The notes beneath the pieces were generated by a model that saw only the letters and a list, made by a program, of their open reading frames with translations, did no database searches and was not told the origin of the DNA. The position numbers and the translations under genes are program-made. Positions 30,245 through 60,945 of a stretch of DNA of 64,000 nt are shown here, piece by piece; positions within the stretch are counted from its first letter, which is position 1; each line of letters starts with the position of its first letter. Origin of the DNA: Auricularia sp. M13 (Eukaryota > Basidiomycota > Agaricomycetes > Auriculariales > Auriculariaceae); the NCBI GenBank assembly GCA_037042915.1, contig CM073202.1:744001-808000 (forward strand), in the 5' to 3' direction.

Positions 30245-30309
30245 TTTGCTTCACCAAACAGCTTCTTACCGCAGTCCCAGGACTGTATGTCGCAGCTTCC
30301 ACTGTCATT

Positions 30310-33670: not shown

Positions 33671-33675
33671 CCTAT

Positions 33676-33957: not shown

Positions 33958-34067
33958 GGTTATGAGCCCCGAGGGCGCTCACAATCCCCCTCGTTTGCCT
34001 GACTCAGCCAACTCACGGTCTTCTGCGCCATACTGCTTGCGCACAGTTTTTACTATACGTCCTGGCC

Positions 34068-38669: not shown

Positions 38670-38676
38670 GTGGGGG

Positions 38677-39021
38677 TGTCAGAATGTGCGGATTTGGTAT
38701 GTGGCAGTGCCGTTCATGCCAGAAAACACCGACCTTCAGTGATTTCTGGCACGAACAACACTGCCACCGGAACCTTTGGCAACCGCAGCCTCCGGCCCCT
38801 TTTTCCAGGCCTGGGCGGAGTTTGTACCTCAGACCGATACGCTATTTGCGCATACGGCTGAGGTACGTAGACTTGGACTATTTTTCCCTTCATTTCACCT
38901 GTACTTATTCTCTTTGTGTAGACGCGACTTGTGTCGCCTTACAGGTGAATACAGACCGATACGCTATTTGCGCATACGGCTGAGACGCGACTTGTGTCGC
39001 CTTACAGGCCGACTTTTGTCA
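38677..39021 (+). repeat. Right LTR of the copia element, with a 63 bp internal duplication lacking the intron-like stretch
   Basis: Same sequence as the left LTR plus 38945-39007. The extra piece repeats the stretch before and after the 59 bp intron-like segment (38863-38921) but joins them directly at 38984/38985, as spliced RNA would. Seven bases (GTGAATA) at its left edge have no obvious source. Confidence 0.9.
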
Positions 39022-39112
39022 CCTATCATGGCAAACAACAGATAGCCATGGCAACGCTTGTACTGCAGCGAACAAGCAGCGAGCACAATAGCCATTGTAA
39101 GTTTAACGTCCT

Positions 39113-39123: not shown

Positions 39124-40868
39124 CAGACCTGATGGTATGCGGGCTGCTGCCTTCGCTCGGACCTTCCTCACGTTTCTCACGGATCCAAGCTCCGGCTGCA
39201 AGGCCACACGCAAAGCCCGATACAACATGCCCGATAGTATAGCCATACTTGTACGTCGCCACCCCGTAAATATGGCCCTCTCTAAGTTCGTTGTAGCAAC
39301 CCACCGAAGATAAATGGATTATTCTTCCCGTCGCAATTCCTGGATGTGGTACAGTACAGAGCACCACCATAGAAAGAAACTTTGGTTAACGCTATACACC
39401 TTAGGAAAGGGCTTGGTTACATATGCTCTCAAGTTCCTGTTCGGCTTCGGCTGCGTCAGCCCAGTTATGAATGGCGAAAGTGGACCCTTGTCATCACCAA
39501 ACGACTCGTCGGATGACGCGTCAGACGACTCGTCAGACGAAACATACATATCGCGCTTGGCCGAAGCGCTGGAGGAGAGGAATGTTGTTATTGCAGATAG
39601 GTGACTGATAAAATTGAGTATTAGTACGGGTTTATTGACACCTTGCTACTACCCTGGGATAGGTATCATCACCGCACAGTCGACCGGAAGGAACTAGATG
39701 CCATACGCGCACAAATGCAGCCTCGCGCAAAGCTTCTGGCTCTCAACTGGGATCTTTCGTCACTGCCAGCATCCGATATTCACGCCGTCTGTTTGACTCG
39801 CATCCAACCCTCTCCTGACGCTAGTCCGGTCATCTGGCGCTTCATAGACAAACATGCGCCGCTCGTCCCTACTGAAGTCGACGCAGGCATCCACCTTGTC
39901 GTTGGAGAGGACATAATCTGTACTATAGCCCGCATTGTTGCTGGTATCGGCAAGCTCTTGCGCGTAAAACCGCTTCATGCCGACTTTGTAGCTCGCGCTC
40001 GTGGACTCTGCCAGGTCTTGCTCGAGATGCAGGCTGGTGGGGAAAAGCTTCGAGCCCGCCCGAGGCGACAGCCCGTTATCGACTTTCGTCTGTTTTTCTT
40101 GAGGGATGACTTTGATTTGGCCGACACGCAGGACCCTCTGCGTGCTGGCTTGCTCGAAGTGTCAGCGCTCGTCACTCGGATGACTGAGATATCTCGTCTT
40201 CCCAACCCAACCATTATACCTCGGCAATTTCACAGCCCCGACGGTCTTGTCCTCACAAGCTGGAAAATCCAAAAGGCGGCATTCTATCGTCGTCCCCCGA
40301 GTCTGCCTGTAACGACGCAGGGGCTCTGGACATGCGCTGTTGCGGCCCGGAACGAAGGAGACGTGCTCAGCGACGAAACATCGCACAAGATTGCGGCAAG
40401 AGGCTACAACAAGTTCTACGATATTAACGAAGTGCCATGGTCAATGGTGCGATGCATGTCGCATGTGTGATTCTGTGAATGCTGACGTAGCACGACAGTG
40501 GACGTCGCTGAGAAAGTATACGGCCGGACCCTTTCATGTTACGGCCATGCTCGGCGGAAGCTTGATCATAATCTCAGCACTTTCTCTGACAACGCTGCTT
40601 GTGACGTCCAAGCATTCGTTCGACCCTCAATCGCACCGCGTGTCCCATGCCGAAATAGGCGAGAAATGGCTTTACAAGCAGCTTGATACCAAGTCGATGG
40701 CCGCCCTGGCCAAGCAACTTTGGCGAGCCGATTGGACTTTGATGTGCCAGGTAAGACGGTCAGTTTAACGTATGTAGTCAACTTGCTCATCTTGCAGCTT
40801 CTGGACGACGTGTTTGAGGAAAACATCATCGAAACCCCTGATGGACTCTCAGGCCTTCACGGCATAAA

Positions 40869-43274
40869 GGGTCATGAGAAAAACGTGCGCACGTGCGCAA
40901 GGTGCGTGCGCAACATTAATTCAACCATAGAAGCCCATTTAGATAAAATATTGTCATTGTTGAAGGTGATTGTGGTAGCTATGATACCATTGCATGCGAT
41001 TATCCAACAACGGTCATCAAACCTTAAAAATCCACAGAGATATTGTTGATATACATATTTCAACTTTCGTGCGCACGTGCGCACGTGCGCAAAACCAGTG
41101 TGCGCCTGCGCACGCATGTTGCAGGTATGCGCACGCAAGTTGAAAACATGCGCACGCAGTTGAAATGCGTGCGCAAAGGTGCTCACGCCCTGCGCACGCA
41201 AGTTGGAACCCTGCGCACGCACTCTTGGAACATGCGCACGCAGTCTTAATTGTTGCGCACGCTCACTTGGACTTTGCGCACGCTGTTGAAAAAATGTACA
41301 CAAGCACTCCTTAAGCATACATACACCCCTTATAAATGGGTCTGCAATTACTGGGCAGGGACCACATGTTCCAAGTTCACGTTTTGTTCATTATTAAGAA
41401 AATTACATTCTGACAGATAGGTCTGGTTTACCCAATTCATAGTTGATTGACTGGCTTCACGTATTGATCTCCAACGAAGCAATATCTGATTCTTCTGAAA
41501 GCTTAGGGCATGTTTTAACCGATTAATTCCTATTTGGGACAAACTTTTCCAACTCAGACATTTGGAATATACCTTTATATACATCTTTATATACATCTAA
41601 CATTTTTCTGATTTTTTGTCTGTTTATTTGAATTCAGATACACATCTCACTGGGAGCAAGGACGAGGATCACTTGAATATCTCCTGAGTATCCTGCCATG
41701 ACATTCAGATAAATGGCACGAGTATCCCAGGAGTATGATATTCTGAACCACTCTGGTGATACACTTTACACAAGGTAATATATTGGATGAGTATCCCTTG
41801 AGGCACAAATGTTCTCATGAGATACTCATTCAATATATTACAGTGGAGGACATGGACATTTGAACACCCCAATTTTTTACTCCTGTAAATTTACAATGTG
41901 TTTCACAGTTGTCGTAGCTCTGAGCCATGAAGCAGTCTGCAAATGAGATTCCTTGAGTGTATTTATGTAGTGTACCTTCTCATCTACCAATGCACAACAG
42001 GTCTCAGTGCTACCTGGCTTGGATGAAATTTGGCAGGCTGTGCAATCCCCATATAGTCATATCAGTCTTGCTGCTGCACCTCATCACAGAGTAATGCAAT
42101 TGACATGAATCCACCACCAAGTTAAAGCTTGGATACTTGTCATCAACACATATCATTGGTGGGAGGAAGGTACTACCCAATGTTGTGGAATTGTAAATTT
42201 ACAGGAGTAAAAAATTGGGGTGTTCAAATGTCCATATCCTCCACTGTACCTTGTGCATAGAGTATCTCCAGAGTAGTTCAGGCTGTGATACTCTTAGGAA
42301 ACTCATGCAATTCACCTGAATGTCAAGTTGGAATACTCAATAGATACTCTATGGAGTCTCTACTCTGCTCCCAGTGTCTGCAACTTCAAGTGTGCATCGA
42401 CTTTTGAGCGTTGTGCAACTTCTAATTCATTACACCTGCTCATGGGGCATCCATCGGCAAAATCCAGTAAAATAAGGATGAGGGAGGGAGTGGACTGATG
42501 AGGATTTTTTTTTTCTTTTTTTCATTGCTCTGATAGTCGTCTGGAAGCTGTATAGAAGGGCCTGAGGCTTATTCAGCATCCTGAAATTAGGTCTGAACCT
42601 TCTTTGAATCCAGCAGAGACTGTGCAAGTCTGAATGCTGAGACTTCAATTCAACAACTGTAAAATGGCAAAACACCCTGGGATTATCCTGGTGAACCCAG
42701 AGTTAGCAGTTTTGGATATACAGAAGCAAATGTGTGGGAATTTATTACTAAATCAGGCAGGAGGAAGTGAGGGAGGCCCACTGGAGGGCGGTTTCTAATC
42801 CACTACGCTTGCAATGACTAATGAACATCAAATCTTTGAGTCTAAGGCAATCTCTAATTGATCACATGGGTATGAATTACAAACTCTCTAATCTACTATG
42901 CTCAAATATGTGCTAGCCCTCGACAGTATTGCAGTTTCTTGTTTATTATGCTACACTTGGGTATGACACAAGCTTGATTAAATCACTGATTTCAAAAAAA
43001 ATTATCCATCAAGTATAATACAATACACTAGCAACCTCGTTGTCTGACTTGCGCACGCATACTTGTGACTTGCGCACACATACTTCTGACCTGCGCACGC
43101 ACACCCATGACCTGCGCACGCATGAGGAAAAGCGTGTGTCCAGAGTTTTGGATCCTGCGCACGCAAGTCAAAACCATGCGCACGCATTTTGAAAACTGCG
43201 CACGCAAGTTGTGCGCACGCAAAATTCTGCGCACGTGTGCGCACGCACCCTGCGCACGTTTTTCTAGGGGTCCC
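40869..43274. mobile_element. Non-autonomous DNA element with TGCGCACGCA subterminal arrays
   Basis: 2406 bp flanked by GGCATAAA (40861-40868 and 43275-43282; a 9 bp duplication CGGCATAAA is equally possible). Imperfect inverted ends share AGAAAAACGTGCGCA. About ten copies of TGCGCACGCA-like words, 17-25 bp apart and mostly in the same direction, sit at 41060-41285, and about eight at 43049-43260. The middle is AT-rich with no coding capacity and holds a smaller MITE (41841-42246). The 8-9 bp duplication suggests hAT or MULE. Confidence 0.75.
41841..42246. mobile_element. pogo-like MITE nested in the TGCGCACGCA element
   Basis: 406 bp with inverted ends of about 57 bp starting CAGTGGAGGA (41841-41897 against 42190-42246), flanked by TA. 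No coding capacity. Ends differ at one or two bases. Confidence 0.88.
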
Positions 43275-43326
43275 GGCATAAACCACCGTACCGTTCACTT
43301 CAAAACCGAGGGTCCAGCCGTCGTTG

Positions 43327-44497
43327 CAAGGGGTATGCACTTTTTAAGCGCCCGGAAGCAACCGGGAGGGGGAGGGTCCCCCGAAGATGCCGTTAAGGAA
43401 TTTTCTTATTATCTTGAATTATTTTTCAGGGATGGTGCAGAGACTTGATTAGGATGCTGTGGAAAAGGCTAAAGTTAAAAACATTGTTTTTAACAGGCAG
43501 TTAAAAACACGTTTAAAACACCCGGCGGCCGCCCAAAACCTGTTTTTAACTCAGTATATGCCTATTGTGCAACTGAGATTCTGCATGAGAACACTCACTG
43601 GGTGGCCTATACATGTTGCCCCACTTATTTTGACTTCATTCAGTCATCCAATGCACTCTATGATTACTCAGCAGCTGAGATACCACTGAGACACTGTGTG
43701 AGAGGTGAGATTGAGCCACATAAGCTGAGACAGGCATTTCAAGGAGTTAACTATCACTCTCAACACACGGTGTGCTCGCAATATATCAGTCTCAGCGTCT
43801 AGCAGCTGCTCATATAGTCTATATATAGCATATATGTTTTTAACACTGTTTTTAACGGCCTGTTTTAAACACATTGTGTTTTAAACTTGTTGAAAAGTCC
43901 TGGCGACTTTTTAACAGCATCCTAGACTTGATTGAGATTTTAGGAGGTCATATTACCTACCTCAAAGCATCCCATGTGGGTAAAGCAGCTGGATTCACAG
44001 AATAGCACTGAGCAGTCCGTTTTGGGCACATTGCCTCTGATGCCGGAATCAGACCGGACAGCCGTGTACCATGGACTCCAAAGTTAATCAATCATCTTAC
44101 AGAGTGGCTGGGGTAATCTCAGTAAGAGTATTTGATGATCAGGTCGGTATTGGAGAGAGATACCACTGGCTTGGTGACATACAGCAGGCCAGGGGCAGTA
44201 CAAATCCTCTTCAAACGCTCTCAGCAGGTCTGCTGAGTAAAGTCACGCCTAAACAATAGTACTTATCCGTCTCAGCTCTCGCATGAATGGTCTCATTAAT
44301 ATCGCAGTCAATAAGTGGTGCCAATTCCCTGGTATTACGGTGTGTACAACCTCACAGGTGAGCCTCAGGATCAATAAGGCTTCCCAAATAGGGAACTGTC
44401 ATCTGTCAGGTCGCGTGACAGGGGGGAGGGGGTCACTCAAGAGGCATTATGGAGTTTTTCGGGACGGTGCAGGAATTTTTTTTTTGCCACCCCCTTG
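43327..44497. mobile_element. hAT-like MITE, CAAGGGG family, copy 2, carrying a nested MITE
   Basis: Ends CAAGGGGTATGCA and TGCCACCCCCTTG, exact 8 bp duplication CGTCGTTG (43319-43326 and 44498-44505). 1171 bp, of which 483 bp are the nested element and its duplicated target. No coding capacity. Confidence 0.85.
43451..43923. mobile_element. Small MITE with 10 bp target duplication
   Basis: 473 bp with ends AGGATGCTGT/ACAGCATCCT and flanks AGACTTGATT on both sides (43441-43450 and 43924-43933). Internal palindromic TTTAAAACAC and TTTTTAACA words. A 9-10 bp duplication points to a MULE-like source; family not settled. Confidence 0.82.
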
Positions 44498-44534
44498 CGT
44501 CGTTGTCAGTTTCGCCAAGGAATGGGGCTTCATT

Positions 44535-45029
44535 CAAGGGGCAGGCATCGGCAAACTCCGGTACACGGACCGGGTGGGGGTGGGTCCAGGCAAACGCTTA
44601 TAACTTTTTTTTGGCTTCCGACAGGGGTCCGGGAGGCCCATTTGAACATTGTCTGTGTCTCCCACAGCATATCCCTTTCTTAAATTGCTCCAAGAGCTTT
44701 AGCAAGCCTTTATGAAGCAATTTGGCCACCTGGCAGGAGCACGCCACGAGGGGCGATGTCTGAGGGCTTATGTCAGCAATTTCCTCTTCCAGAATTTACC
44801 TCTGCCAGGAGCACGGCTACGCTTGCGCTGCGTCTATTGAGCTGCTGGATGCTTTGAAAGTCGACATTTAAACATTTAACGGGAGTTGACCCAGTTTCAG
44901 TTCCAAATACGGCATCCGTGGGGGTCAAATTTGCTTCCGAGGGGGGGGGGGGGGGAGGGGGGGCTCAGCAACCCGCTTACGACTTATTTTCGGGTGCGTG
45001 TCCACTATTTTTCCCTTGCCTGCCCCTTG
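44535..45029. mobile_element. hAT-like MITE, CAAGGGG family, copy 3
   Basis: 495 bp with ends CAAGGGGCAGGCA and TGCCTGCCCCTTG and an exact 8 bp duplication GCTTCATT (44527-44534 and 45030-45037). It contains a G-run interrupted by one A at 44940-44963. No coding capacity. Confidence 0.9.
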
Positions 45030-45124
45030 GCTTCATTCTGATGGCACATACGATATGCAGAACTATGTCTGATGTCGAGGTATTTCAACGCAAGTGCTCG
45101 AAGGCGAAAGGTTGCTGGAACGAC

Positions 45125-45848
45125 TGTTAAGCCTGCTGTGCCTTGGGGGTTTGGTTGCAAGGATAGTCGAACGTCCGGGCGCAGAGAACACTCGAACGAA
45201 CAACTAGAGCCTTTGGTGCGTTATTGAGCACACCGGCTACGTCGAGTAGCACGACCGAAGGGACCATGAGCAACAGAGGACTCAGACGAGTAAGTCGGGC
45301 GAGGGAAGAACCCAGAGGCGAAGTCGAGAGAGAGAGATAGAGTGTGCGAGGGGCACGACTATGTCGATTTCGTAACTGGGGAGCTAGATACAAAGTCGAG
45401 GGTCTTTTATACCTGGGGAGGTGATCCGATGTAATCTGAGTGTATCCTAGAGACGAAGGAGAGGGGGCCTCAGATCAATAGAGATCGTCGTCATCGGCCG
45501 ATAGGATGAGTAAGAGCGAGTGGGTAAGGTATCGGGGGATCGGACGAATGACGAGAGGCGAATGACTAAGACGAGTGGAGCGAACCGGATATGAACACTA
45601 TCGATACAGTAGGGACAAGGCTAGTTAGGTGGATGTATGCGAGTAAGGAGAGAAGCTAGAGATGAGAGGGAGAGGTCTAGAGGTAGAGGACGATGAGGAG
45701 AACATATCCCGAGCATATGAACACGAGGGGAGATAAGCCGGGTATTCGGGAGCTTGACCGAGTTGACCGAGTTGGCCGAGTGACGTAGAATGATGCCGAG
45801 TGATGCCGAGCGCACGTGGGGTCCGCGGACCGGGGCACGGGCGTAACA
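45125..45848 (-). repeat. Gypsy LTR (3' LTR in coding orientation)
   Basis: 724 bp, TGTTAAGC...GCGTAACA. Confidence 0.95.
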
Positions 45849-46044
45849 GTATCCCCCCTTTACGTCCTGAGCCCACGAAGGACTGCAGCAACGCAAGGTG
45901 AATACGAAAAATGAGATAGCACGCACTCGAGTCCGAATGGAGCCAAAAATCGGGTCGGGTCGGAACGGGTCGGACGCAGATTAAAAGTGGTTGGGTCGGG
46001 AGTTGAATCGTCGAACCAGTCTTGTCTTCTGCCCGTCGCCCAAC

Positions 46045-47293
46045 ATGCCCCGCTACGAATCGCTCGAGGACGTCGCCGCCGCGTACAACCGCAAGACCGT
46101 CGGCGCCGTTATGAGGTCGCTCGAGGACGACCCAACGATGGAGGCGCTGATCGCGGCGCACGAGAACGCGAAGTGGACGCTCGGCGGCCTGCAGCAAGAG
46201 GCCGTCGACGAGGAGGACCTCAACGCGATCGAGGCGTTCAGCGCGCGCAGGCGCCAGGCGAAGGCCGAGCTGCGCCTGGCGGCGCAGCGACGCTTCGGGA
46301 TGCTGGCCGAACGCATGGCCAAGGTCGCGGCAGACGCAGGCGCTAAGGCGGCGAAGAGCCAGGCATCGCCGGCGAAAGCGCTGACAACGAGCACGAAGGC
46401 GCCGACGACGAGCACGAAGGCGCCGGCAAAGGACGCGAGGGAGACTGAGTCGCCGCCGAAGAAGAAGTGGGCGTTGGAGGTATGGGTCGAGCTTCCGTGG
46501 TTGCGGGATGTCGCTAAGGTGCGCTTATTTTGCAGGTCGAGAGCCCGAAGACGACTCAGGCGCCGCGCAAGGTCGTGCCGAAACCCGCGCCGGTCGCGGT
46601 CGCTCGCTCGCCGTCGCTCGGGGCGGGCGAGACGCTCGAGGACGACGACGAGGTCGAGGAGATCGCGAGCCCGGTGGCGCCGGCCGCGAAGCCCAAGCCG
46701 CGCGCCGGCAGCAAGTTCACGGACAGGTGGCCGGAGGTGCCGTACGGGACGCGGTTCCCGAGTAAGGTGAGTTTTTTGTCCTTCGCGTTTTGCTCGCCGG
46801 GACTGACGTCGAGAAGTGCGAGGCTTGCGCCAAGCGCGGCGGCCAGTGCATTCGGCAGCACCAGTCGAACACTTGCACCGCGTGTCATCAGACCCGGGGC
46901 AAGTGTACGCACTCGGGCAAGCCGTTTGTGCCGCGCGGCGAGAAGAGGGCGGCGTCGCCGAGTGCGTCGCCCGAGCGCCCCAAGAAGGTGCGCATCGTCG
47001 AGGGGACGACGCTGGGGATGAGGGCGGCCGAGGATCGCGCGAAGACGGCCGAGCACCGCCGGGTCGTGGAGAACCACGCCCTGTGGACGAACAACTTGGT
47101 GCACAACATCGAGCGGATGTTGTACTGGATGCTGCAGTGGCAAGCGCAGCAGTTCGGCCAGTCGATCGACGAGTCGATTGACGATCCGTTCATGAGCGAG
47201 GAGGAAGAGGAGGCCGAGGAGGAGGTCGAGGAGGAGACCGAGGAGGAGGACGAGGAAGCGGTCGAGGAAGCGACCGAGGACGCGGACGAGTAG
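46045..47293 (+). CDS. Accessory gene antisense to the gypsy pol, 381 aa, Cys-rich and acidic
   Basis: Exons 46045-46479, 46536-46766 and 46814-47293 with introns of 56 and 47 bp in phase 0. The start MPRYESLEDVAAAYN follows a short leader. N-terminal part helical (residues 1-120), middle Lys/Pro/Ala-rich, then a Cys cluster KCEACAKRGGQC / CTACHQTRGKC (about 222-255) that could bind zinc, a helical stretch (VENHALWTNNLVHNIERML) and a Glu/Asp tail. Encoded opposite to Gag-Pol, between integrase and the LTR. No known retroelement enzyme is recognised. Antisense extra genes in this position are known from some plant LTR elements; function unknown. Confidence 0.75.
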
Positions 47294-47413
47294 GCGATCG
47301 GATAGAGTAGTAGCGGGTGCGACCAAAGTCGCCCAAAATGTAATAAATGACTGTTTCTTGGAATTGGGTGAAAAGCGAGTGAGCGAAGAGATAGCGAGTG
47401 AAAAAACGAGTGC

Positions 47414-48991
47414 TTAGATGTTTTCAAATTTCTTGAGGATCTGCTGGAACTCTTGATAACTGCCGGGAGCGCTGGGATTTGCAGCATAGAAGTCTTGAAC
47501 TGCTTCTTGCGCATGTTCGAGATTTTCGGAGCCCATCTCGGTGGTCTCGGGGTCGTCGGGAGTGCCGATGTGACCGATCCAGCGAATGCGAAAACGAAGG
47601 CACGAGTGACGATGGCGATTGTCGATGCGTACGCTGAGTACTTCGAGCTCGTACTCCTGCTCGCCGTCAACAACGACAGGCAGAGGAGGTTCTTGACGTT
47701 GACCGGGGAACGCTTCTCGAGGGTGGGGTTCGAGTTGTGAGACATGAAAGACCGGGTGTACGCGAGCGAGGTAGTCGGGTAGGCTGAGAGTGAACGATTG
47801 CGAGCTAGGTTGATCGACGATCAGGAACGGGCCTAGGTAGCAATCGGCGAGTTTGCGAGTGGGCTGTGTCGTCTTGATGTGCTCCGAGAGGACGTAGGCC
47901 ATGTCGCCGACCTTGAAGTCAGGCGGGGGAGTGCGTCGAGCATTCGCAGATGCAGTGTAACGTTTCTGAGCGGCAGCGATCTGCTCCTTCAGGACGTCCT
48001 GCAGTTCGTGGATGTCGACAGCGAAGTCGCGGGCGCGAGCAGAGGCAACGTCGCGCTCGGGGTAGACGGAGATGTTCGGGTGAAAACCCTTGTTGGCGAA
48101 GAAAGGCGAGACACCAGTCGAGTCGTTCGGGGTGTTGTTGTACGTGAACTCGGCGAGAGGGAGTAGCTCGGACCAGTTGTCCTGCTCGTAGTTGCAGTAG
48201 AGACGGAGGTACTGCTCAAGCGTCTGGTTCGTGCGTTCGACTTGACCGTTCGCCTCCGGGTGGTGACCTGAGGTGAAGTGCATGGTCATGTTGAGGAGCG
48301 AGCCGAGTGCGCGAAAGAAGCGGGAGACGAATTCAAAGCCGCGGTCGGTAGAGACGTGCGAGGGAGCGCCATGTTTGGCGAAGACGTGGATGAGGAAGAG
48401 ACGCGCGAGTTCTTCGGAGGTGATCTTGCCCTTGGTCAGGACGAAGATACCCTGCTTCGAGAGGCGATCAATAATGACGAGGATCGCAGTGTAACCGTTG
48501 GACTCAGGGAGTTGTTCGATGAAGTCCATCGAGATCGAGTCCCAGTTGCGAAGCGGAATCGGGAGCGGTTGAAGTCGACCGTACGGCTTGTGTCGTCGAG
48601 GTTTGCTGCGCCCACAGGTGACGCAGGCCTGGACGTAGGTACGAATCGAGTCGTGCAGGTCGGGCCAGTAGTACTCGCGGGCGACCATCTTGAGTGTCTT
48701 GTTCTGACCCGGATGGCCAGCGAGCGGGTGATCATGCTTTTCGCGAAGGATATGAAGGCGACAATCGAGAGCGTTCGGTACGTAGATCCTGCCCTTGAAC
48801 AGCAAGAATCCATCGTCCGAGGCCGACCAGTTGATCGCGTCATCGGTGCCGAGTTTCGAGCGAATGTCGAGAGCGAGTTCGTCCGAGTCGTACGAGGCGC
48901 GAATGTCATCCCGAATGGACTGAGTGTCCATGATCGTGGCTGCGCGAAGGAAAGTCTCTTCAGCACACCTGTACCTTACCCTAAAACCCAT
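47414..48991 (-). CDS. Gypsy integrase with chromodomain (element fossil part)
   Basis: HHCC zinc-binding start (HPLAGHPGQNKTL ... CVTCGRSKP), core marks ISMDFIEQLPES and STDRGFEFVSR, C-terminal text YELEVLSVRIDNR ... AQEAVQDFY typical of a chromodomain. The frame's beginning lies in the edge of the nested element. Confidence 0.9.
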   Translation of the reverse strand: MGFRVRYRCAEETFLRAATIMDTQSIRDDIRASYDSDELALDIRSKLGTDDAINWSASDDGFLLFKGRIYVPNALDCRLHILREKHDHPLAGHPGQNKTLKMVAREYYWPDLHDSIRTYVQACVTCGRSKPRRHKPYGRLQPLPIPLRNWDSISMDFIEQLPESNGYTAILVIIDRLSKQGIFVLTKGKITSEELARLFLIHVFAKHGAPSHVSTDRGFEFVSRFFRALGSLLNMTMHFTSGHHPEANGQVERTNQTLEQYLRLYCNYEQDNWSELLPLAEFTYNNTPNDSTGVSPFFANKGFHPNISVYPERDVASARARDFAVDIHELQDVLKEQIAAAQKRYTASANARRTPPPDFKVGDMAYVLSEHIKTTQPTRKLADCYLGPFLIVDQPSSQSFTLSLPDYLARVHPVFHVSQLEPHPREAFPGQRQEPPLPVVVDGEQEYELEVLSVRIDNRHRHSCLRFRIRWIGHIGTPDDPETTEMGSENLEHAQEAVQDFYAANPSAPGSYQEFQQILKKFENI

Positions 48992-51900: not shown

Positions 51901-52504
51901 CATTATCCGTAGCCTCGACATCGATATTTGGCCCGGGGCTGGTCACCCCGATCTGTAGAACACATTATATACATGCACCCCCCTTCAAATGCTTCACCAT
52001 TGAATAGAGCTCAAAAATGCGATCCAAATTATATATATGTCTATATCCATATCTACCTCAGAAGGGCCGGGGTTGTGCTCACCGGCAGCGGCAGCGGCCA
52101 CAGCTGTTGGCAGCGGCAGTGATCAAACACGGCGATAAAGCGTGTATAAAACCGGAAGGCAGTCAATCTTGCTATATGCACCTTTTTTTCCGGAGCAAAA
52201 GGGTTTATTTCTGCGGTGTCTGCGTCGACGACGGCGACGACGGCGACGGCGGGCACACCAAACAGTGTGCAGATCGCCGACGGTGATGTGCCGAGTGTTT
52301 GATGCGGCGCTGGCAGCGGACACACCGGCCTTGACCTCCGAAGGTCAAGCACCTTAACCACTGCTCCAGGACTTAGCTAGTTCAGCTGTATTTATTGAGG
52401 AAATACAGCTGTTAATGGCAATAGCTCGAAAAGCCTTCAAGTAATGGACGGATCTCACTCAGATCCGTCCATTACTTAATGGGTTTTAGGGTAAGGTACA
52501 GGTG
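48966..52504. mobile_element. Foldback element with inverted arms of about 1.1 kb, nested in the gypsy element
   Basis: 3539 bp flanked by an exact 8 bp duplication CTTCAGCA (48958-48965 and 52505-52512). Arms 48966 to about 50090 and about 51380-52504 mirror each other without length change and differ at about three bases until near 50030, then more. Ends CACCTGTACCTTACCC. Each arm has hairpins (a 17 bp stem at 48993-49031), a tRNA-like A box (TGGTTAAGGTG, 49110-49120) with stem CTTGACCT/AGGTCAAG, and four to five degenerate units of about 150-190 bp sharing GCTCCAAGGATCTCG-like text. The centre (about 50090-51380) has no recognised gene. Confidence 0.9.
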
Positions 52505-52506
52505 CT

Positions 52507-54675
52507 TCAGCATACGTCGCGCGAAGGGAAGCGGCGAACTGTTCCGAAGTAAAAACGGGTCGGAAGTTCTGCGGGTTTGCGCTGGCGTAGCCACCATCCC
52601 CCCCTTTTGAGATAGACGTCGTGGCGGCAAGTGAGAGCATCGGGTTTGCCGCCGAGTCGACCGGGTCGAAAGCGAATGAGGAGGTTGAAGGAAGAAAGGT
52701 ACTCAGACCAGCGAGCTTGCTGACGAGTGAGCATCTTCGTGGTAGAGAAATACTCGAGGTTCTTGTGGTCCGTGACGACGTCTATTGGGGTCTTGGCCCC
52801 TTCGAGGTAGTGTCGCCATAGTTCGAACGCCTCGAATATCGCGAGTAGCTCCTTGTCGTGCGTGTCGTAGTTGAGCTCGTTGGGAGTGAGCGTGCGCGAA
52901 TGGAAAGCGACGGGGTGAACAGAGCCGTCCGGGAGGACGTGCGAGAAGATTGCCGCGATCGCGTAGTCGGAAGCGTCAGTCTTGACGACGCGAGGGAGAG
53001 CGGGATCGAAGTGGTGAAGGACGAGAGCGCAAGTGAACGCCTTCTTGAGCTCGTTGAACGCAGCAAGGCATTGCGGAGTGAAGTTCCACGTTGCGGTCTT
53101 TCGAGTGAGACGAGTGAGCGGGACGACGATATCGGAGTAATCGTAGATGAATCGTCGATAGAAATTCGCGAAGCTGAGGAACGACTGGATGTCGCGAACG
53201 TTGCGAGGAACGGGCCACTCGAGGAGGGTGGCAATCTTCTTCGGGTCCATGCTGATGCCCTCGGGGCTGATGATGTACCCGAGGTACTCAATGGTGTCAG
53301 CATGGAACTCGCACTTCTCGGGCTTACAGAAGAGGTCATTCTCCCGCAGCCGTCGAAGGACCTCTCGAACGTGTTCCTCATGCTTCGAGGGATCGTCCGA
53401 GTAGATGAGGATGTCGTCGAGGTAGACGGTGACCGTGACGTCAAGGAGGTCGGAGAAGATGTCGTTCATGAAGCGCTGGAAAGCGGCTGGAGTGTTCGTG
53501 AGACCGAAAGGCATGACGAGATACTCGTAGGTGCCGTAGCGCGTTCGAAAGGCAGTCTTACACTCGTCGCCGGCCGCGATGCGAACGTTGCTGTATCCGA
53601 CACGGAGATCGAGCTTGGTGAACTTCTTGGCAGTGCGAAGGCAGTCGAGCGTAGACGAGATGAGCGGGAGCGGGTACTTGTCCTTCCGAGTGATCTTGTT
53701 GAGCCCACGATAATCGACGCATAGGCGAAGAGAACCGTCGGCCTTCTTGACGAAGAGAACCGGGGCGCCACCCGGGGACGACGAAGAGCGAATGTGTCCT
53801 TTGCTGAGGTTATCCTGAATGTACTCCCGAAGCGCGAGTTGCTCAGGCTCAGAGAGCGAGTAGATCGGACCGGATGGGAGAGGCTTGCCTTCTTCCATGT
53901 TGATCTTGAGATCGTACGGCCGATGTTCAGGGAGTCGATTTGAGGCCTCCTTTGAGAAGACGTCGAGGAACTCGTGATAACACTCGGGGATGCCTTCGCC
54001 GGTTTCCGAGGCCGGGTTGGCAGACGCAGAGCGAGCGGGCACCGATGGATCTCGAATGTAGATGGCCGAGACCATCGAGCCGCGAAGTCGACAAGAGGTG
54101 TCGAAGGCTGCGGCGCCGATGATCTTGATGTCGACGCAAGCAGCGGCCGCGCGAAGGGCGGTTTCGTCCATCGGCGGTTCGGGAGGCAGAGTACGTGGCG
54201 CGGGAGGAGGTGACGACGGAGTCGGAGGATCCGAGTTGAGCGAGAACCCAGGGACAAAACCTGAGGGATCCGAGGGCGAGACACGAGTGGGGAAAGAGAT
54301 GCGGTGATGGAACCAGTCAATCCTAGGATTGTAGCGGGCCAACCAGCGGTATCCCAGCACTGCAGAGCAAGTCGGATCTAGAGTGGTGAGGAGGAAGTTG
54401 ATGATCATCGAAGTTCCGCAAGGGAAGCGGACGGGAAGCGACACATATTTGGAGATAACACCGCGGTAGGAGCTGTCGAAAAGCCGAAGGCGGAGCGGTT
54501 GATCGAGAGACTTTTGAGGGAGTCGAAGACTCTCGGCGAACTGAGTATCGAGGAACTGATCTTCGGAGCCGGAGTCGACGAGTGTGCGAAAGGATGGGAC
54601 AGCGTCGGAGGAGAGGACGACGATGAGAGCGTCTTGATCGGTGAGCGCGGCAGCGTTCAACCGAGTGTAAGGCAT
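52507..54675 (-). CDS. Gypsy protease, reverse transcriptase and RNase H (element fossil part)
   Basis: Protease TLVDSGSEDQFLD; reverse transcriptase LCVDYRGLNKITRKDKYPLP, VMPFGLTNTPAAFQRF, VYLDDILIYSDD; RNase H VKTDASDYAIAAIF. The frame ends next to the nested foldback element. Confidence 0.92.
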   Translation of the reverse strand: MPYTRLNAAALTDQDALIVVLSSDAVPSFRTLVDSGSEDQFLDTQFAESLRLPQKSLDQPLRLRLFDSSYRGVISKYVSLPVRFPCGTSMIINFLLTTLDPTCSAVLGYRWLARYNPRIDWFHHRISFPTRVSPSDPSGFVPGFSLNSDPPTPSSPPPAPRTLPPEPPMDETALRAAAACVDIKIIGAAAFDTSCRLRGSMVSAIYIRDPSVPARSASANPASETGEGIPECYHEFLDVFSKEASNRLPEHRPYDLKINMEEGKPLPSGPIYSLSEPEQLALREYIQDNLSKGHIRSSSSPGGAPVLFVKKADGSLRLCVDYRGLNKITRKDKYPLPLISSTLDCLRTAKKFTKLDLRVGYSNVRIAAGDECKTAFRTRYGTYEYLVMPFGLTNTPAAFQRFMNDIFSDLLDVTVTVYLDDILIYSDDPSKHEEHVREVLRRLRENDLFCKPEKCEFHADTIEYLGYIISPEGISMDPKKIATLLEWPVPRNVRDIQSFLSFANFYRRFIYDYSDIVVPLTRLTRKTATWNFTPQCLAAFNELKKAFTCALVLHHFDPALPRVVKTDASDYAIAAIFSHVLPDGSVHPVAFHSRTLTPNELNYDTHDKELLAIFEAFELWRHYLEGAKTPIDVVTDHKNLEYFSTTKMLTRQQARWSEYLSSFNLLIRFRPGRLGGKPDALTCRHDVYLKRGGWWLRQRKPAELPTRFYFGTVRRFPSRDVC

Positions 54676-54722
54676 CTTGGGCTTGACGCAGTTGGCCCTA
54701 GATGCCCGTGGGGAACTGCCTG

Positions 54723-56522
54723 TTAGTTTTTCGCTTCCGCCGGGGCAGAAGCGGCGGCGCCCGAGGGAGCGGGAGCTGGCGTCGAGGAAGTCGCGGGTTG
54801 AGCCTTAGCGGCGCGACCCTTCGACTCGCGATTGTGAGCGGCCTTGCGGCACTCGGACGCGGTGTGGCCGGCATGGCCACAGTAGAGGCAGAGGTTGTTA
54901 TCGAGGCGACGGCGTCGTTCGGCGTCGTTGAGCTTGCCGTTCGAGTTGAGGTTCTTCGCGACGTTGTCCTTCGACTTGGTCGTGGTCTTCGAAGACGAGC
55001 GGGCCGAGGTCGAGGACTGACCCCTCGAGTTCGAGTGGTTGTTCGAGTTGCCGTGGTTGCCGTTGTTGCCGTTGTTGGAGCGCGCGTTGGACTTGGTGTT
55101 CGATCGGGAGCCCGATTGAGGCGTCGCGGTCGAGGTGGTCTTCTGCGTTTTGCGGGGTTCGTTCGCGTGCTCGAGAGCTTGCTCGTCCTTATCGATCCAG
55201 TAGTTGGTGTTGATGCTAAGGGCGAGCGCAGCGAGTGGCGTCAGAGAAGCCGGGCGTTGAGCTACCTGAGCAGCGAAGACAGATTTGATGCGTCGAGGGA
55301 GTCCACGATAGAATTGCGAGGCGAGTGCAGCGTCATCCCAGACGAGCAGTTTGGCGTATTCGTCGAACTGGAGCTTGTAGCGGGCGACCTTGCTGTTGTC
55401 GGCCATTTGCAGTCGTCGAATCTTGACTTCGGCGCGTTCGCGTTCGTTCGTGACGCCGAAGGTGATCGTGAGTTCGTTCTTGAATTCGTTCCAATCTTCG
55501 AGGAACTCGTAGCCGGGAGGCGGATTCGGGACGAGAGGAACGTAGCCGCCCCACCATTCCTTCGCCCGACCCGAGAGATAGGTCGCGGTGAAGAGAATCT
55601 TCTCGCGGGACGTCTGGTACTTCCGAGGGTTGGCGAGGAAGTAGGTTTTGCAGTCGATGAGGAATCCGCGAAGTTTGTTGGCGTTTTCGCCGTCGAATTT
55701 GTCGGGTTTAGTGGCGTCGATGCGAGAGCCGCTGTCGCGGTCGACGAAGTAGACACGAGGGACGTTGTCGTGTTGATCGTGGAATTGTCGTTCGCGATCG
55801 ACGTCCGAGTCGTAGCCGTCCGACGGAGGGTCAAAGGGAGGTCCTGGGGGACCAGGAGGATCGTTACCGCCACCACCTCCCCCACCGCCGCCACCTCCGG
55901 GAGGAGGGTTCGGAGGGTGCGAGCCGTGCGAGCCGTGCGAGTGGTGCGAGTGGTGCGACGAGGGCGAGGGAGCACCTCGATGACCACCACCGCCACCGCC
56001 GCCTCCGCCTCCTCCTCCGCCACCCCCGCCGCCACGCCGAGGCGTGTTAGGGGTGCCGGATGGGAAGAAGCCGCGGAACGACGAGGAGTGCTGCGAAAGA
56101 CGAGGAGTCGAGCGAGAGCCGGTGTACGGGACGAGCGCGAGAGGGTGTCGAGAGCCGAGCGAGTGAGTCGAGGGATGCGAAGGCGATCGCGTCGTGTGAC
56201 TTGAGGGAGGGTAGGAACCGCTCGGGTCCGCGCGTAGTGTGGACTGGGCCGGCGAGAAACGCGAGGTGTGAAGCAAGCCGGAGAGAGTATGTTGCGAGAG
56301 GATTTCCTCATCATCGTTCGGCGGTTGCGAGTGCCGAGATGATCCGAAGCTGCTAGTGCCCGACATCGAGGCTGATGGCGAAGGCGTAGCCGGCTGAGGA
56401 GGTTGTTGGTCGCGAAGACGAGCCTGACGACGAGCTTCGCGAAGGATAGCGTCAGGGGAGTCGAGTAGAGGATGAGGTTCTTCCTGGTTTCTTCTGAGAT
56501 TCTGTCGAGTCCCAAAGGCCAT
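54723..56522 (-). CDS. Gypsy Gag, 599 codons (element fossil part)
   Basis: Ser/Pro/Gly-rich N-terminus with long Gly runs, a capsid-like region (AKEWWGGYVPLVPNPPPG, FKNELTITFGVTN, SQFYRGLPRRIK) and a zinc knuckle CLYCGHAGHTASEC near the C-terminus. Confidence 0.9.
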   Translation of the reverse strand: MAFGTRQNLRRNQEEPHPLLDSPDAILREARRQARLRDQQPPQPATPSPSASMSGTSSFGSSRHSQPPNDDEEILSQHTLSGLLHTSRFSPAQSTLRADPSGSYPPSSHTTRSPSHPSTHSLGSRHPLALVPYTGSRSTPRLSQHSSSFRGFFPSGTPNTPRRGGGGGGGGGGGGGGGGGHRGAPSPSSHHSHHSHGSHGSHPPNPPPGGGGGGGGGGGNDPPGPPGPPFDPPSDGYDSDVDRERQFHDQHDNVPRVYFVDRDSGSRIDATKPDKFDGENANKLRGFLIDCKTYFLANPRKYQTSREKILFTATYLSGRAKEWWGGYVPLVPNPPPGYEFLEDWNEFKNELTITFGVTNERERAEVKIRRLQMADNSKVARYKLQFDEYAKLLVWDDAALASQFYRGLPRRIKSVFAAQVAQRPASLTPLAALALSINTNYWIDKDEQALEHANEPRKTQKTTSTATPQSGSRSNTKSNARSNNGNNGNHGNSNNHSNSRGQSSTSARSSSKTTTKSKDNVAKNLNSNGKLNDAERRRRLDNNLCLYCGHAGHTASECRKAAHNRESKGRAAKAQPATSSTPAPAPSGAAASAPAEAKN

Positions 56523-56554
56523 ACAACTCGAGCGGAGCTCGAGTTACGAAATAC

Positions 56555-57278
56555 TGTTAAGCCTGCTGTGCCTTGGGGGTTTGGTTGCAAGGATAGTCGA
56601 ACGTCCGGGCGCAGAGAACACTCGAACGAACAACTAGAGCCTTCGGTGTGTTATTGAGCACACCGGCTACGTCGAGTAGCACGACCGAAGGGACCACGAG
56701 CAACAGAGGACTCAGACGAGTAAGTCGGGCGAGGGAAGAACCCAGAGGCAAAGTCGAGAGAGAGAGATAGAGTGTGCGAGGGGCACGACTATGTCGATTT
56801 CGTAACTGGGGAGCTAGATACAAAGTCGAGGGCCTTTTATACCTGGGGAGGTGATCCGATGTAATCGGAGTGTATCCTAGAGACGAAGGAGAGGGGGCCT
56901 CAGATCAATAGAGATCGTCGTCATCGGCCGATAGGATGAGTAAGAGCGAGTGGGTAAGGTATCGGGGGATCGGACGAATGACGAGAGGCGAATGACTAAG
57001 ACGAGTGGAGCGAACCGGATATGAACACTATCGATACAGTAGGGACAAGGCTAGTTAGGTGGATGTATGCGAGTAAGGAGAGAAGCTAGAGATGAGAGGG
57101 AGAGGTCTAGAGGTAGAGGACGATGAGGAGAACATATCCCGAGCATATGAACACGAGGGGAGATAAGCCGGGTATTCGGGAGCTTGACCGAGTTGACCGA
57201 GTTGGCCGAGTGACGTAGAATGATGCCGAGTGATGCCGAGCGCATGTGGGGTCCGCGGACCGGGGCACGAGCGTAACA
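56555..57278 (-). repeat. Gypsy LTR (5' LTR in coding orientation)
   Basis: 724 bp partner of 45125-45848. Confidence 0.95.
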
Positions 57279-57690
57279 ACGACATAGTTCTGCAAGCTTT
57301 GGTCGTTCGAGCTACTGTTCGCGAAGACCTTGCTAAAGTCATCGCTGAGAGCCCAGCAATCTCGCCCTGTCCGCCTCCGGCTGCACCAGGCGATCCCTTC
57401 TTCTTTAAGGTGTCGTTTAACAAGGATTATGAGCTTTGGAGCCAATTTCGTAAGATCACGTGTGCGGCTTTGGCAAGTAAAAGTAAGTATGAGCAGCGTC
57501 CGAGATTATTACAGGTCACTCACTATTCGTTCCACATGTACATCCGACATCGTTTCTTCAATCCAACGTCCCCTCACCCGCAACAAGGGAATTATTTGCC
57601 TATCAGATCTGGTTAAAGGATGAGCTGTTGGCCGAAAAAACTATTGCTGACGGACTCAAGAATGGCCGCGGGTTCATAGCACTCCGAAAG

Positions 57691-58192
57691 CAAGGGGACA
57701 CCGGAAGCAAACTGACGGCACCGGGTTGGTAACCTCTGCAACCCCCTGAGGCACGACCCATCCATCCTATTTCCGCGGATATACCTCCGGATTGCCTCTG
57801 GATATCCGCGACAGGCTAAGATTCAGGCTGTCCAAATGCTTTCTGCCTTGGAAATTTGTAATAATGCTTCCGGAACATGTGCTCATCCAGCAGCTTGCCT
57901 AAAAGTCCCAGCAGCTTACACAGAAGTCGCATCTCAGAACAATGATGCATTATGTCAGCACGCAATATGCATCCGAGGGACCCGGGATCAATGACCCTAC
58001 AGCAATGTAAAAAAACTTAAGTGGACTTGAAGTGCTCGGAAGAAGTTTATTAATTCATTTTCAAGCAAAATTGAGCCTTCTGAGGGCTCTCCGGGGCCAA
58101 TTTGGCTGGTGTCCCGAACCTCTGCAGCGCAAGGTCGGCGGACCCATCCATCCTAACCTGATGCTCCGGATTTTGCCGGCTGGGTCCCCTTG
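57691..58192. mobile_element. hAT-like MITE, CAAGGGG family, copy 4
   Basis: 502 bp, ends CAAGGGGACACCGG and GCTGGGTCCCCTTG, exact 8 bp duplication TCCGAAAG (57683-57690 and 58193-58200). Shares its first 28 bases almost exactly with the inverted right end of copy 1. Confidence 0.9.
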
Positions 58193-58342
58193 TCCGAAAG
58201 TGCTTCCTTCTCTGGTCTGAGACTCCCGAAGGCGTCTCCGGTCTGCGCGCTGCGCAAGATCGTGTAACACCAACTCTTATGCCAGCCTTTAACGCCCCTT
58301 TGAGCAAGCCTGCTTATGGCACCCTATACAAGTCGCTTGTCT

Positions 58343-59808
58343 TAGCGCTCAGTTAGTTATCTCCTGGCAGGTAACTAACATGTTACTAACATTGTGTGTT
58401 ACTAACACCGTGTTAGTAACATTGTTAATAACAACACTGCTTATATAATGTAATAGATGAGTAGAACAGGAGCTAGACATTCAGAAGGACCCCTAGACAT
58501 ATTGGATAACATCTGGGAGGAGTGGTGATGGACCTATTTGACCGTTGCTGGCGTGAGGTGGGGTGCTGGTGCTTGATTCAGCCATGAGACAGCCCCACAC
58601 AAACAGCCTTAACACTGGATCATCCTGCAGTGTTGAGGCAGGGTGATATGCATATTAAGGATGAATTAAGGAGTGATTCTCACCTCTGAATTCCTCGTGG
58701 GCCCAGTTGGAACCACTTCCCTGAAAGTTACTAACACGACCTCAAGCCCGAGGTCATGTTAATAACATGTTAGTAACTAACAAGTTAGTAATTACTAACA
58801 TGTTAGTTACTAACATTTAGTTACTAACATGGTTAGCATGTTAGTAACTAACAAGTTACAGCGGCTCTTCTTTTTCTTGGCCGCATCAACTTTTTGTGAA
58901 ACGCGAAAAGAGTCGTCCCAATTGGGACGCCAAACACCGGCGATGCAAACTGGAGCCCGGCCGATGCACCGGCAGACCGTCCAGCAGCGTCCAGATGTAG
59001 TTTCGATGGTCCTGCGCGTCCATGTACATGCCAAGCATGTGAGATGTTCATATTTCAGCATTATAAGTAATCCTCACCAAAAATTGCGAGTGAGACGCGA
59101 GCAAAGTGAGCGGAATGCACTGGACACTGAGCGGGCCTGGTTGAATCCCATGTCGAGACAACGGGCAGAATCTGAGCGTTCGGGATACGTCCTTCGGTCA
59201 TATTGAGACGTTCCACGGACTTAGGGTCACCCAAAGGTGTGTTCTGAGCCTCCGCCAGGAAAACCTGGCTTAGGAGCTATTCTTGGCGTGTTTGACGGTG
59301 CAAAACGGTGTTTGGCGTCCCAATTGGGACGACTCTTTTCGCGTTTCACAAAAAGTTGATGCGGCCAAGAAAAAGAAGAGCCGCTGTAGTAATTACTAAC
59401 ATGTTAGGGTAACTAACAAGTTAGCAACTAACATGTTAGTAATTACTAACATGTTAGGGTAACTAACATGTTAGTAATTACTAACTAACAAGTTAGTAAT
59501 TACTAACTAACAAGTTAGTAATTACTAACATGTTACTAACTTGTTAGTTAGTAATTACTAACATGTTAGTTGTTAGTTAGTAATTACTAACTTGTTACTA
59601 ACATGTTAGGGTAATGGTAATAACTAACATGTTAGTAATTACTAACTTGTTAGTTGCTAACATGTTAGTTAGTAATTACTAACTTGTTAGTTACCCTAAC
59701 ATGTTAGTAATTACTAACATGTTAGTTACTAACATGTAATTACTAACTTGTTAGTTACTAACATGTTAGTAACATTGTTACTAACTTTCAGTAACTAACT
59801 GAGCGCTA
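58343..59808. mobile_element. hAT-like element built from palindromic TAACATGTTAGTAATTA repeats
   Basis: 1466 bp with ends TAGCGCTCAGTTAGTTA and TAACTAACTGAGCGCTA and an exact 8 bp duplication GCTTGTCT (58335-58342 and 59809-59816). Both sides are packed with short palindromic words (ACATGTTAGT, AGTAATTACT, ACTAACTTGTTAG). It carries a pogo-like MITE (58859-59386). No coding capacity. Confidence 0.85.
58859..59386. mobile_element. pogo-like MITE nested in the palindromic repeat element
   Basis: 528 bp with inverted ends of about 85 bp starting CAGCGGCTCTTCTTTTTCTT (58859-58943 against 59302-59386), flanked by TA. No coding capacity. Confidence 0.92.
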
Positions 59809-60337
59809 GCTTGTCTTCTTAGTTGGGTTGTACCGCATCCTGGCCCAGGATGCGGTAGGCAATAATACTGCCAACACCCCTGTTTGCTGATTAATTAATC
59901 AGGCAAGACATTCATTTTGCGAGGTTTATCGCTTTTGTTCGGATTTAATCACGTGGAATTCCCAACCGCGAAGACGCGGACCGCGAAAACATCAACTTCA
60001 CGACTTTTGGAGACGGTCAAGGCAGCGCATGATTCCCACAAGGTGGTCATTGCCGATGGGTATGTGCACACAGTTTTGAGGGTTTTTTTATTTAGGGTAC
60101 CGCCGCGCTTTCGCACGGAGTCCTGAACCCTCGCCGCCTTCTGTGCACGTCGTCTGTGTCTACCGAATCACTCATAATTTCCACTCACACGGTCTTTACG
60201 CTGCGTGACTTTACCGTACAACCTTATTGCAGTGTCAAACACAGTTGGTGGGTTGTCATGTGATCTTATTGTGTAATGTCTCACGCACGCGTCCATAAAG
60301 CCCACGCACCCTTGTCCCTCGAGCCTACTGCACAGAC

Positions 60338-60945
60338 ATGTCCTTGCCATCATCCCCTGCAGACCTTCGCGACATTTTCACGTTTTCGACGGTTCCGACG
60401 ACTGTGGAATGGGGAGAATCGACCCAAGCCACCAGCCATCGTCTGCGCGTCTTGGGAGGCAGTCGTCCCCTCGTCGTCGTATTCGAGGGGACAGTTTCGA
60501 CCATTTTGGCCATTCCAGGTTCGACCTTGTACAGTTTCGCTGTGGATCTGGACAACAACGACGAAGCACGTGCTGCCCATGCCCTGTTGCGCAGGTTCTC
60601 AACCGAAACCACCGGTGAGCTGCATTTTGTGCTGCTTGGCATGTTCCTGCTTACAATCACATAGGAACTGAATTCAATCCTGCTGGCCGCATCAACGTCA
60701 CGCATCAGTCAGACCATCAGCCAGATACCGTGAGTTGTTGCCAGAATATGTCGTTCTCGATTAACACTTCCAAGAATCGCGAATGCGAATGCGCTGCGAA
60801 GCTCAAAGTGGGCATGAAGTGCACCTTTTACTGTGAAATCATCAGATGTTCTCCGATGTTACCGCTAATGGCCGTGACGGCGGGGCTACGTTTTACACGC
60901 CAGACGCCGTCATGGGCTTTTTTCTCTGCCGTATTTGTAGTCTAA
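60338..60945 (+). CDS. Unrecognised protein, about 170 aa
   Basis: Exons 60338-60614, 60665-60729 and 60775-60945 join in phase (introns 50 and 45 bp). Starts MSLPSSPADLRDIFTFSTV; middle text SRPLVVVFEGTVSTILAIPG. The last exon is Cys-containing (NRECECAAKLKVGMKCTFYC) and its end is uncertain. No family recognised. Confidence 0.45.

Follow-up and report, generated by a model that had tools for sequence, protein, structure and literature searches.

How does a gene that occupies 3.6 kb in one paralogue come to extend over ~67.8 kb, measured from its start codon through its cyclic phosphodiesterase (CPD) region, in another? The longer gene is of the Trl1 (tRNA ligase) type and begins at position 39227 of the window, the 64,000-nucleotide stretch of Auricularia sp. 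M13 DNA analyzed here (C10:744001-808000 of a 52.1-Mb, 14-contig assembly); features beyond the window are given in extended coordinates, that is, the C10 position minus 744,000. The evidence favors reading the window gene as a duplicate, lost only recently, of a Trl1-like gene specific to its lineage, and filled by transposons (probability roughly 0.86).

Six insertions and an uninterrupted paralogue

A profile search of the genome (10/10 candidates scored) identifies four loci of the ligase family PF09511, so that an earlier note on this DNA understated the case in calling the window gene a "second" tRNA-ligase-like gene. Canonical Trl1, with matches to PF09511, PF08303 and PF08302, lies at C7:526 kb. 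The remaining loci are on C10: the uninterrupted paralogue L014 at 706 kb (locus C10:702001-712000), the window copy at 784 kb (PF09511 stretch C10:784490-784747) and another paralogue, L015, at 1018 kb on the minus strand. L014 lies 78 kb upstream of the window copy; its nine exons are separated by GT-AG introns and give a frame of 1,057 aa. Used as a DNA query, the first host piece of the window gene has one other genomic match, C10:706199, at 78% identity.

The host pieces match L014 in seven BLASTN blocks, in order and at 74–92% identity, from which the inserts are absent, and the joined flanks align to L014 base by base. Because it lacks the inserts, L014 serves as an internal empty-site control that is exact to the base. 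Together with a PF09511 match of E 4.7e-16, these blocks bear out the proposal that Trl1-type coding pieces continue in order from one side of each insertion to the other.

All host pieces lie on the plus strand. Exons 1–2 (39227-39250 and 39297-39348), which carry the start codon and the P-loop of an N-terminal kinase-like domain, come from a GT-AG exon model that matches L014. Exons 3–4 (39405-40446), with the rest of that domain, a linker and the ligase start, are placed by open frames and the L014 alignment, and exon 5 (40499-40750) holds the PF09511 match and the ligase motif I region, which reads MLGG as against canonical KSNG. Exon 6 is broken into the pieces 40798-40868, which ends in the target-site duplication (TSD) GGCATAAA (40861-40868), 43275-43326, which is flanked by copies of the TSDs GGCATAAA and CGTCGTTG, 44498-44534 and 45030-45124. 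The end of exon 6, intron 6 (~57483-57514, its acceptor shifted relative to L014) and the start of exon 7 follow at 57279-57690, a second piece of exon 7 at 58193-58342, and the end of exon 7, intron 7 and exon 8, the start of the C-terminal kinase, at 59809-60059. The left half of intron 8 (60060-60090) then runs to the entry point of a Helitron (A^T).

Six inserts, E1–E6, separate the exonic pieces, and all six of the intact target duplications described in the earlier note are present at the insert boundaries. E1 (40869-43274; 2,406 bp) is a DNA transposon with imperfect inverted ends and an 8-bp TSD, GGCATAAA at 40861/43275. E2 (43327-44497; 1,171 bp) is hAT-like, with CAAGGGG ends and the TSD CGTCGTTG at 43319/44498, a third copy of which occurs at 54923. 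E3 (44535-45029; 495 bp) and E5 (57691-58192; 502 bp) are hAT-like miniature inverted-repeat transposable elements (MITEs), the former with CAAGGGGCAGGCA ends and the TSD GCTTCATT at 44527/45030, the latter with CAAGGGGAC ends and the TSD TCCGAAAG at 57683/58193. Between them lies E4 (45125-57278; 12,154 bp; minus strand), a Ty3/Gypsy element with long terminal repeats (LTRs) at 45125-45848 and 56555-57278, the TSD ACGAC at 45120/57279, and minus-strand gag, protease, reverse transcriptase, RNase H and integrase domains. E6 (58343-59808; 1,466 bp) has TAGCGCTCAGTTAGTTA ends and the TSD GCTTGTCT at 58335/59809. The inserts sum to 18,194 bp, in agreement with the ~18 kb of mobile DNA first estimated.

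As a measure of chance matches, boundary pairs were drawn at random from the region: of 200,000 such pairs, an exact 8-mer is shared in 6 and an exact 5-mer in 228. ACGAC by itself is common, occurring at 37 places in 38.5–60.5 kb; the pair considered here bounds a two-LTR element. E2, E3 and E5 have the 8-bp TSD, short terminal inverted repeats and CAAGGGG ends of hAT-type MITEs, and on TSD length and this end motif we take them to belong to the hAT superfamily. No transposase is seen in these three elements, and no autonomous copy was looked for. Judged by element type, the hAT-like MITEs and the other elements with 8-bp TSDs would have entered by cut-and-paste transposition, and the Gypsy element by reverse transcription. 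Several of the elements recur in the genome, at counts that are lower bounds because the best 40 of 47 and the best 40 of 116 candidates were scored: full or nearly full-length copies of E3 are found at no fewer than 11 other places and near full-length copies of E5 at at least 15.

Some of the insertions were themselves hit. Five of the eight in the gene as a whole were struck again, namely the Helitron, the Gypsy element, E2, E6 and, probably, E1. Genomic copies identify the inner elements of E2 (~43450-43924) and E6 (a 533-bp repeat at 58856-59388): E2 occurs without its inner element in at least 8 places, the E6 repeat is present at full length in at least 8, and E6 end pairs, spaced ~0.5 kb apart, occur in at least 9 (one of them 4 bp short). 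A script search found no clean TSD for the E6 repeat. The inner element of E4 (48966-52504; 3.5 kb) is identified by its 8-bp TSD, CTTCAGCA; it sits between the RNase H and integrase domains, its inverted arms of 1,128 bp are 98.9% identical, and every stop-to-stop frame that it fully encloses is shorter than 150 aa. In E1, inverted arms of 75% identity mark a probable inner element at 41648-42376, for which the script search found no clean TSD. The suggestion that four of the six insertions carry a further element therefore stands for E2, E4 and E6 and is probable for E1. Likewise, the expectation of a readable insertion order is borne out for nested pairs only, and events at separate sites are unordered apart from rough LTR ages.

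The missing 3' end and a Helitron in intron 8

BLASTN homology to L014 ends at 60,064, and exon 8 ends at 60,059. The C-terminal protein of L014 matches the missing tail at C10:849367-849681 (68%) and C10:850268-851011 (65%), within C10:849364-851011; the remainder of the kinase and the CPD occupies extended 105,381-107,011. An F-box gene follows this tail, tail to tail, as it does beside L014. The end that had been assigned to the gene at 60126 is thus not its end; the gene picks up again past the window edge, after 45 kb. Truncation at ~60.1 kb by a 3' deletion was considered and is rejected on the same grounds.

The intervening DNA is E7, a Helitron that extends from ~60091 to extended ~105361 (C10:849361), with 60091-64000 inside the window. 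It measures ~45 kb in total, with a 26-kb backbone, and its minus-strand frames match Helitron_like_N (PF14214, E 4e-33) and PIF1 (PF05970, E 6e-20). Both ends match one other locus, C2:2014494-2040810 on the minus strand; between the two ends the collinear blocks are 66–92% identical, and the C2 stretch matching the Rep/helicase part is a single 2,060-aa frame. E7 is inserted between A and T without a TSD, as at the C2 junctions, with a one-base ambiguity. Its 3' end is CCCTAAA with a GC-rich hairpin and its 5' end is TTCCTGAAC with a hairpin, the exact end base being ambiguous. CACACAG and CCTGAAC, candidate TSDs of the 45-kb insert, were dropped because the C2 relative places the boundaries elsewhere. 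An element of this type would have entered intron 8 by rolling-circle transposition.

Two LTR elements are nested in E7. R63 (extended 63,344-67,709) has the TSD GGCAT. R84 (extended 84,374-98,998), which carries a Ty3-type gag-pol, lies between the Rep and helicase parts; no target duplication was found for it, and its two 1,972-bp LTRs are identical.

E7 resembles Pleurotus HELPO1 as described in PMC4289320, with a single frame for Rep and helicase, with cargo genes, an AT target and a terminal hairpin; in one HELPO1 copy, the same paper reports, a Gypsy element is inserted in the RepHel frame. The E7 backbone is ~26 kb (45 kb with nested elements), in contrast to 1.5–13.7 kb for HELPO1 (PMC4289320). 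An inverted repeat near both ends places E7 closer to the Helitron2 type of PMC5148889. E7 also contains orphan gene families that are internally duplicated (60338/69933, 69078/74677, 68138/73662, 78455/102884 and 79083/104432), and these are largely common to the C2 relative.

Small orphan gene families alongside Rep/helicase genes might suggest host genes moved by chromosomal rearrangement, and not a mobile element, as the source of the 45-kb interval. This is very unlikely, as similarity to C2 begins and ends at both host junctions, the intron 8 remainder in the window gene is 50 nt vs 55 in L014, and Rep and PIF1 domains are present. Even less credible is an assembly artefact that joins pieces of several loci. 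The locus does contain long near-identical repeats, including the two identical LTRs of R84, but matching TSDs occur at 6/6 sites and one host gene is kept in order with its F-box neighbor.

Beyond the Helitron, an eighth insert of 679 bp with the TSD GTGCTG (extended 105,677-106,355) lies within the CPD exon. A copia retrotransposon (33676-39021, plus strand; RVT_2, copia gag and rve) lies ~200 bp before the start codon, and L014 homology continues on either side of it. Its ends and its TSD, CCTAT (33671-33675 / 39022-39026), were read by eye, the script having missed this TSD. The original tally of six insertions is accordingly right between 39227 and 60126, and it missed the Helitron, the eighth insert and the upstream copia element.

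The same inventory bears on whether the gene still works, with its inserts spliced out as introns. The host pieces are open bar one shift and the Helitron lies within a natural intron, as such a gene would require, but the six inserts and the eighth are exonic with duplicated target bases. Moreover, the P-loop of the C-terminal kinase is frame-shifted by a 14-nt inverted duplication, and splicing would have to remove an exonic insert of 12 kb and an intron of 45 kb, compared with L014 introns of 46–61 nt. A working gene therefore deserves almost no credence. By eye, the 14-nt insert (59831-59857) is an inverted copy of adjoining P-loop bases that forms a palindrome with 13-bp arms; its sequence resembles the footprint of a hairpin or a template switch.

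Selection, open frames and the timing of gene death

Over 724 codons, the window pieces and L014 have a synonymous divergence (dS) of 0.54 and a nonsynonymous divergence (dN) of 0.145, a ratio of 0.27 (bootstrap 0.21–0.34), and in the ligase region dN/dS is 0.20. When the tail is included (1,044 codons), dS is 0.51, dN 0.15 and the ratio 0.30. The two copies have, on average, diverged under purifying selection. No stop is present in the 1,044 host codons, and in piecewise translation every piece is open in one frame, save for the 14-nt shift and the introns. In 200 simulated runs of neutral drift, zero stops are retained in 5.5% at 0.03 substitutions/site and in 0.5% at 0.05. That the window gene was never functional is rejected by dN/dS and the absence of stops.

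The LTRs date the insertions roughly. Between the two E4 LTRs, 8 of 724 sites differ (K 0.011), between those of R63 8 of 1,024 (distance 0.008), and no difference separates the aligned stretches of the copia (269 bp) or R84 (1,972 bp) LTRs. An E4 LTR distance of 0.011 and the lack of stops, set against a duplication dS of 0.51, indicate that death and pile-up came late relative to the duplication. The window copy probably became dispensable recently, and at least eight elements entered the gene; the first exon hit would have broken it and removed selection, so that later hits, no longer selected against, could accumulate. Dispensability had been suggested in the earlier note and agrees with the finding that L014 and canonical Trl1 are uninterrupted elsewhere. 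Though striking, the pile-up is the ordinary decay of a dispensable duplicate. The locus offers a clean record of duplicate-gene death in a fungus: a frame held open by selection through most of its history, at least eight varied elements acquired quickly, and little base-level decay.

Several observations weigh against so simple a course. First, dN/dS is an average over both lineages. Second, with L015 as reference, private amino-acid changes number 54 in the window copy vs 31 in L014, with 168 unresolved. Third, the ratio is higher in the tail, at 0.38 over 320 codons. Given the excess of private changes and the higher tail ratio, constraint may already have relaxed by the time the elements entered. 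The alignment itself adds a caution, in that the aligner penalises stops and a few piece-end codons are misassigned, e.g., ~734–740, which are counted from both sides.

The order of events could also have been the reverse, the locus having been silenced as heterochromatin and insertion-prone before the gene died, and thus a target and not merely unprotected. Nine insertions within a single gene or close to its 5' side, of which five were probably hit again, would fit such a history, as would further transposon-type frames at 6–9 and 27–32 kb and the CpG observed/expected ratios of 0.49–0.76 in the short DNA elements E1, E2, E3, E5 and E6. The CpG loss of these short elements, however, may stem from their earlier genomic life. 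The host pieces have ratios of 1.07 and 1.09, close to the uninterrupted L014 (1.17) and L015 (1.04); a long methylation history is not visible in them, which speaks against a long-silenced locus. Open frames and a dN/dS of ~0.3 likewise point to selection until late. Silencing before gene death is therefore unlikely, and the decay of a dispensable duplicate by transposon entry remains the preferred reading.

A Trl1 family with a second kinase and its RNA-repair setting

What the dead gene once encoded can be judged from its paralogues. The C7 locus, at which canonical Trl1 is retained as one locus on another contig, alone passes PF08303 and PF08302 in a six-frame search. Spliced L014 and L015 models pass PF08303 (1e-10 and 3e-9) and fail PF08302. 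A reading of the four ligase loci as uniformly canonical Trl1 is rejected, as PF08303 and PF08302 occur together only at C7. In a Pfam scan, L014 contains RNA_lig_T4_1 at 308–564 (4e-56) and a best tRNA_lig_kinase stretch at 681–751 (1e-10); the CPD family PF08302 is not listed for L014 and reaches E 0.055, below cut-off, in L015. The C-terminal part of L014 is nonetheless collinear with the canonical CPD, and its ligase, C-terminal kinase and CPD together are collinear with canonical Trl1 at 34.7% over 798 aa.

The N-terminal domain sets these genes apart. By BLASTP, the first ~200 residues of L014 match the canonical Trl1 kinase (35%, E 1e-33) and the C-terminal kinases of L014 and L015 (26.8% and 28.5%, E 5e-17 and 2e-17), and the N-terminal kinase-like domain of L015 matches the canonical kinase (29%, E 4e-27). 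The domain is never the best Pfam stretch in the proteins scanned, its identity resting on BLASTP; the Pfam scan of a single window exon leaves the N-terminal kinase unreported and gives a ligase match only, below cut-off. An intron occupies the identical place in the P-loop of both kinase copies of L014 and L015 and is absent from the canonical gene, and no kinase was found before the canonical Trl1 ligase. On these alignments, the family architecture is kinase-ligase-kinase-CPD, with an N-terminal domain that is, judging by sequence, a Trl1 kinase copy in degenerate form. The kinase-ligase-kinase order proposed earlier is thus supported by the N-terminal match and incomplete, a CPD-like domain being additional.

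The ancestral protein would have consisted of N-kinase-like, RNA ligase, kinase and cyclic phosphodiesterase-like domains (KLKC), and its gene most likely arose from Trl1-type parts, the kinase domain having been duplicated, and diverged from canonical Trl1. L014 shares the ligase domain with fungal Trl1 (PF09511, PF08303 and PF08302), and its five PDB matches, e.g., 6n0t, 6n0v and 9r3w, are all named tRNA ligase. Unlike fungal Trl1, the family has the extra N-terminal kinase-like domain, L014 and the window copy have Met in motif I, and the window copy is broken.

Several catalytic positions are altered. Motif I aligns as KSNG in canonical Trl1, KENG in 6n0v, KLNG in L015 and MLGG in L014 and the window copy, so that the adenylated Lys is kept in L015 and the canonical protein and replaced by Met in the other two. 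Met also occupies the motif I Lys position in PDB chain 6n0t, presumably an engineered dead mutant. In the N-terminal P-loop, L014 and the window copy have GCGKG. In the C-terminal kinase, Walker A GCGKT is kept in L014 and L015, and the Asp of canonical QSDD, a catalytic residue, is missing in both. The CPD signature consists of two HxT motifs, which read HVT/HVT in canonical Trl1, HIT/HVV in L015 and RVT/HVV in L014 and the window-copy tail; these kinase and CPD residues are essential in the active enzymes. As the window copy and L014 both have Met, the adenylated lysine was most simply lost in their ancestor. Ligase catalysis, as read from the alignment, appears to have been lost in both. 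The KxxG lysine is essential in ligases according to PMC3400036.

Loss of catalytic residues under purifying selection suggests a non-sealing role, probably that of a paralogue that bound RNA ends, or regulated, without ligating. Catalytically dead paralogues such as prozyme are also retained without a catalytic residue (PMC5201418); for the Trl1 paralogues, no partner or activity is known. The accessible portions of the literature found on fungal Trl1 paralogues, duplicated kinase, RNA repair and inactive tRNA ligase contain no description of a kinase-ligase-kinase protein. The family is noteworthy as a Trl1 relative with a second kinase, whose ligase lost the catalytic lysine under continued purifying selection and which lies near Tpt1-lobe/kinase fusions; such a family would bear on how cells control tRNA repair and the unfolded protein response, or on protection from tRNA-cutting toxins. 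Such a kinase-duplicated, partly dead lineage is less ordinary than the transposon pile-up.

In a genome search over 14 contigs, C10 holds 3/4 PF09511 loci, 2/3 PF01885 loci and 1/2 PF09414 loci. Tpt1-family matches occur at C10:763.5 kb (8.6e-6), at C10:1030.5 kb (2e-9) and at the canonical locus on C4. The window itself contains, at 17249-20060 on the minus strand, a gene with a Tpt1 N-lobe, PAM2 and a Trl1-type kinase, identified by profile and protein matches, which is probably the "first" gene implied by the earlier numbering. Its PAM2 match is 1e-7, its kinase is 39.6% identical to the canonical one (1e-43), and it has the P-loop intron found in the paralogues. The Tpt1 lobe is above cut-off genome-wide and, for the single exon scanned, has E 0.0014, below cut-off. 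A Tpt1 lobe is likewise joined to a Trl1-type kinase in the C10:1030.5 kb gene near L015. Rnl2-type ligases (PF09414) are found at C10:1494 kb and C11:491 kb, and an open reading frame with KLHGTNA beside L015 (L015:7296-7760, plus strand) matches Rnl2-type RNA_ligase weakly (1.6e-5, below cut-off).

Three KLKC paralogues, one with motif I intact and two with Met, and two Tpt1-lobe/kinase genes prompt a tentative suggestion: C10 might hold a rebuilt tRNA-repair set that forms a parallel RNA-end sensing or regulatory system, in which dead ligases hold broken RNA and from which the window gene is being lost. This is less probable than not.

In the window as a whole, neither Rfam (gathering scores) nor ARAGORN (bacterial code) gives a match. 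A mobile cluster upstream of the gene (27093-32378, plus strand) contains a PIF1-like helicase, a weak Ulp1-type protease match (below cut-off) and DDE_1 frames. On the minus strand, a 926-aa frame at 10981-13758 combines an NB-ARC/STAND-type ATPase with tetratricopeptide repeats.

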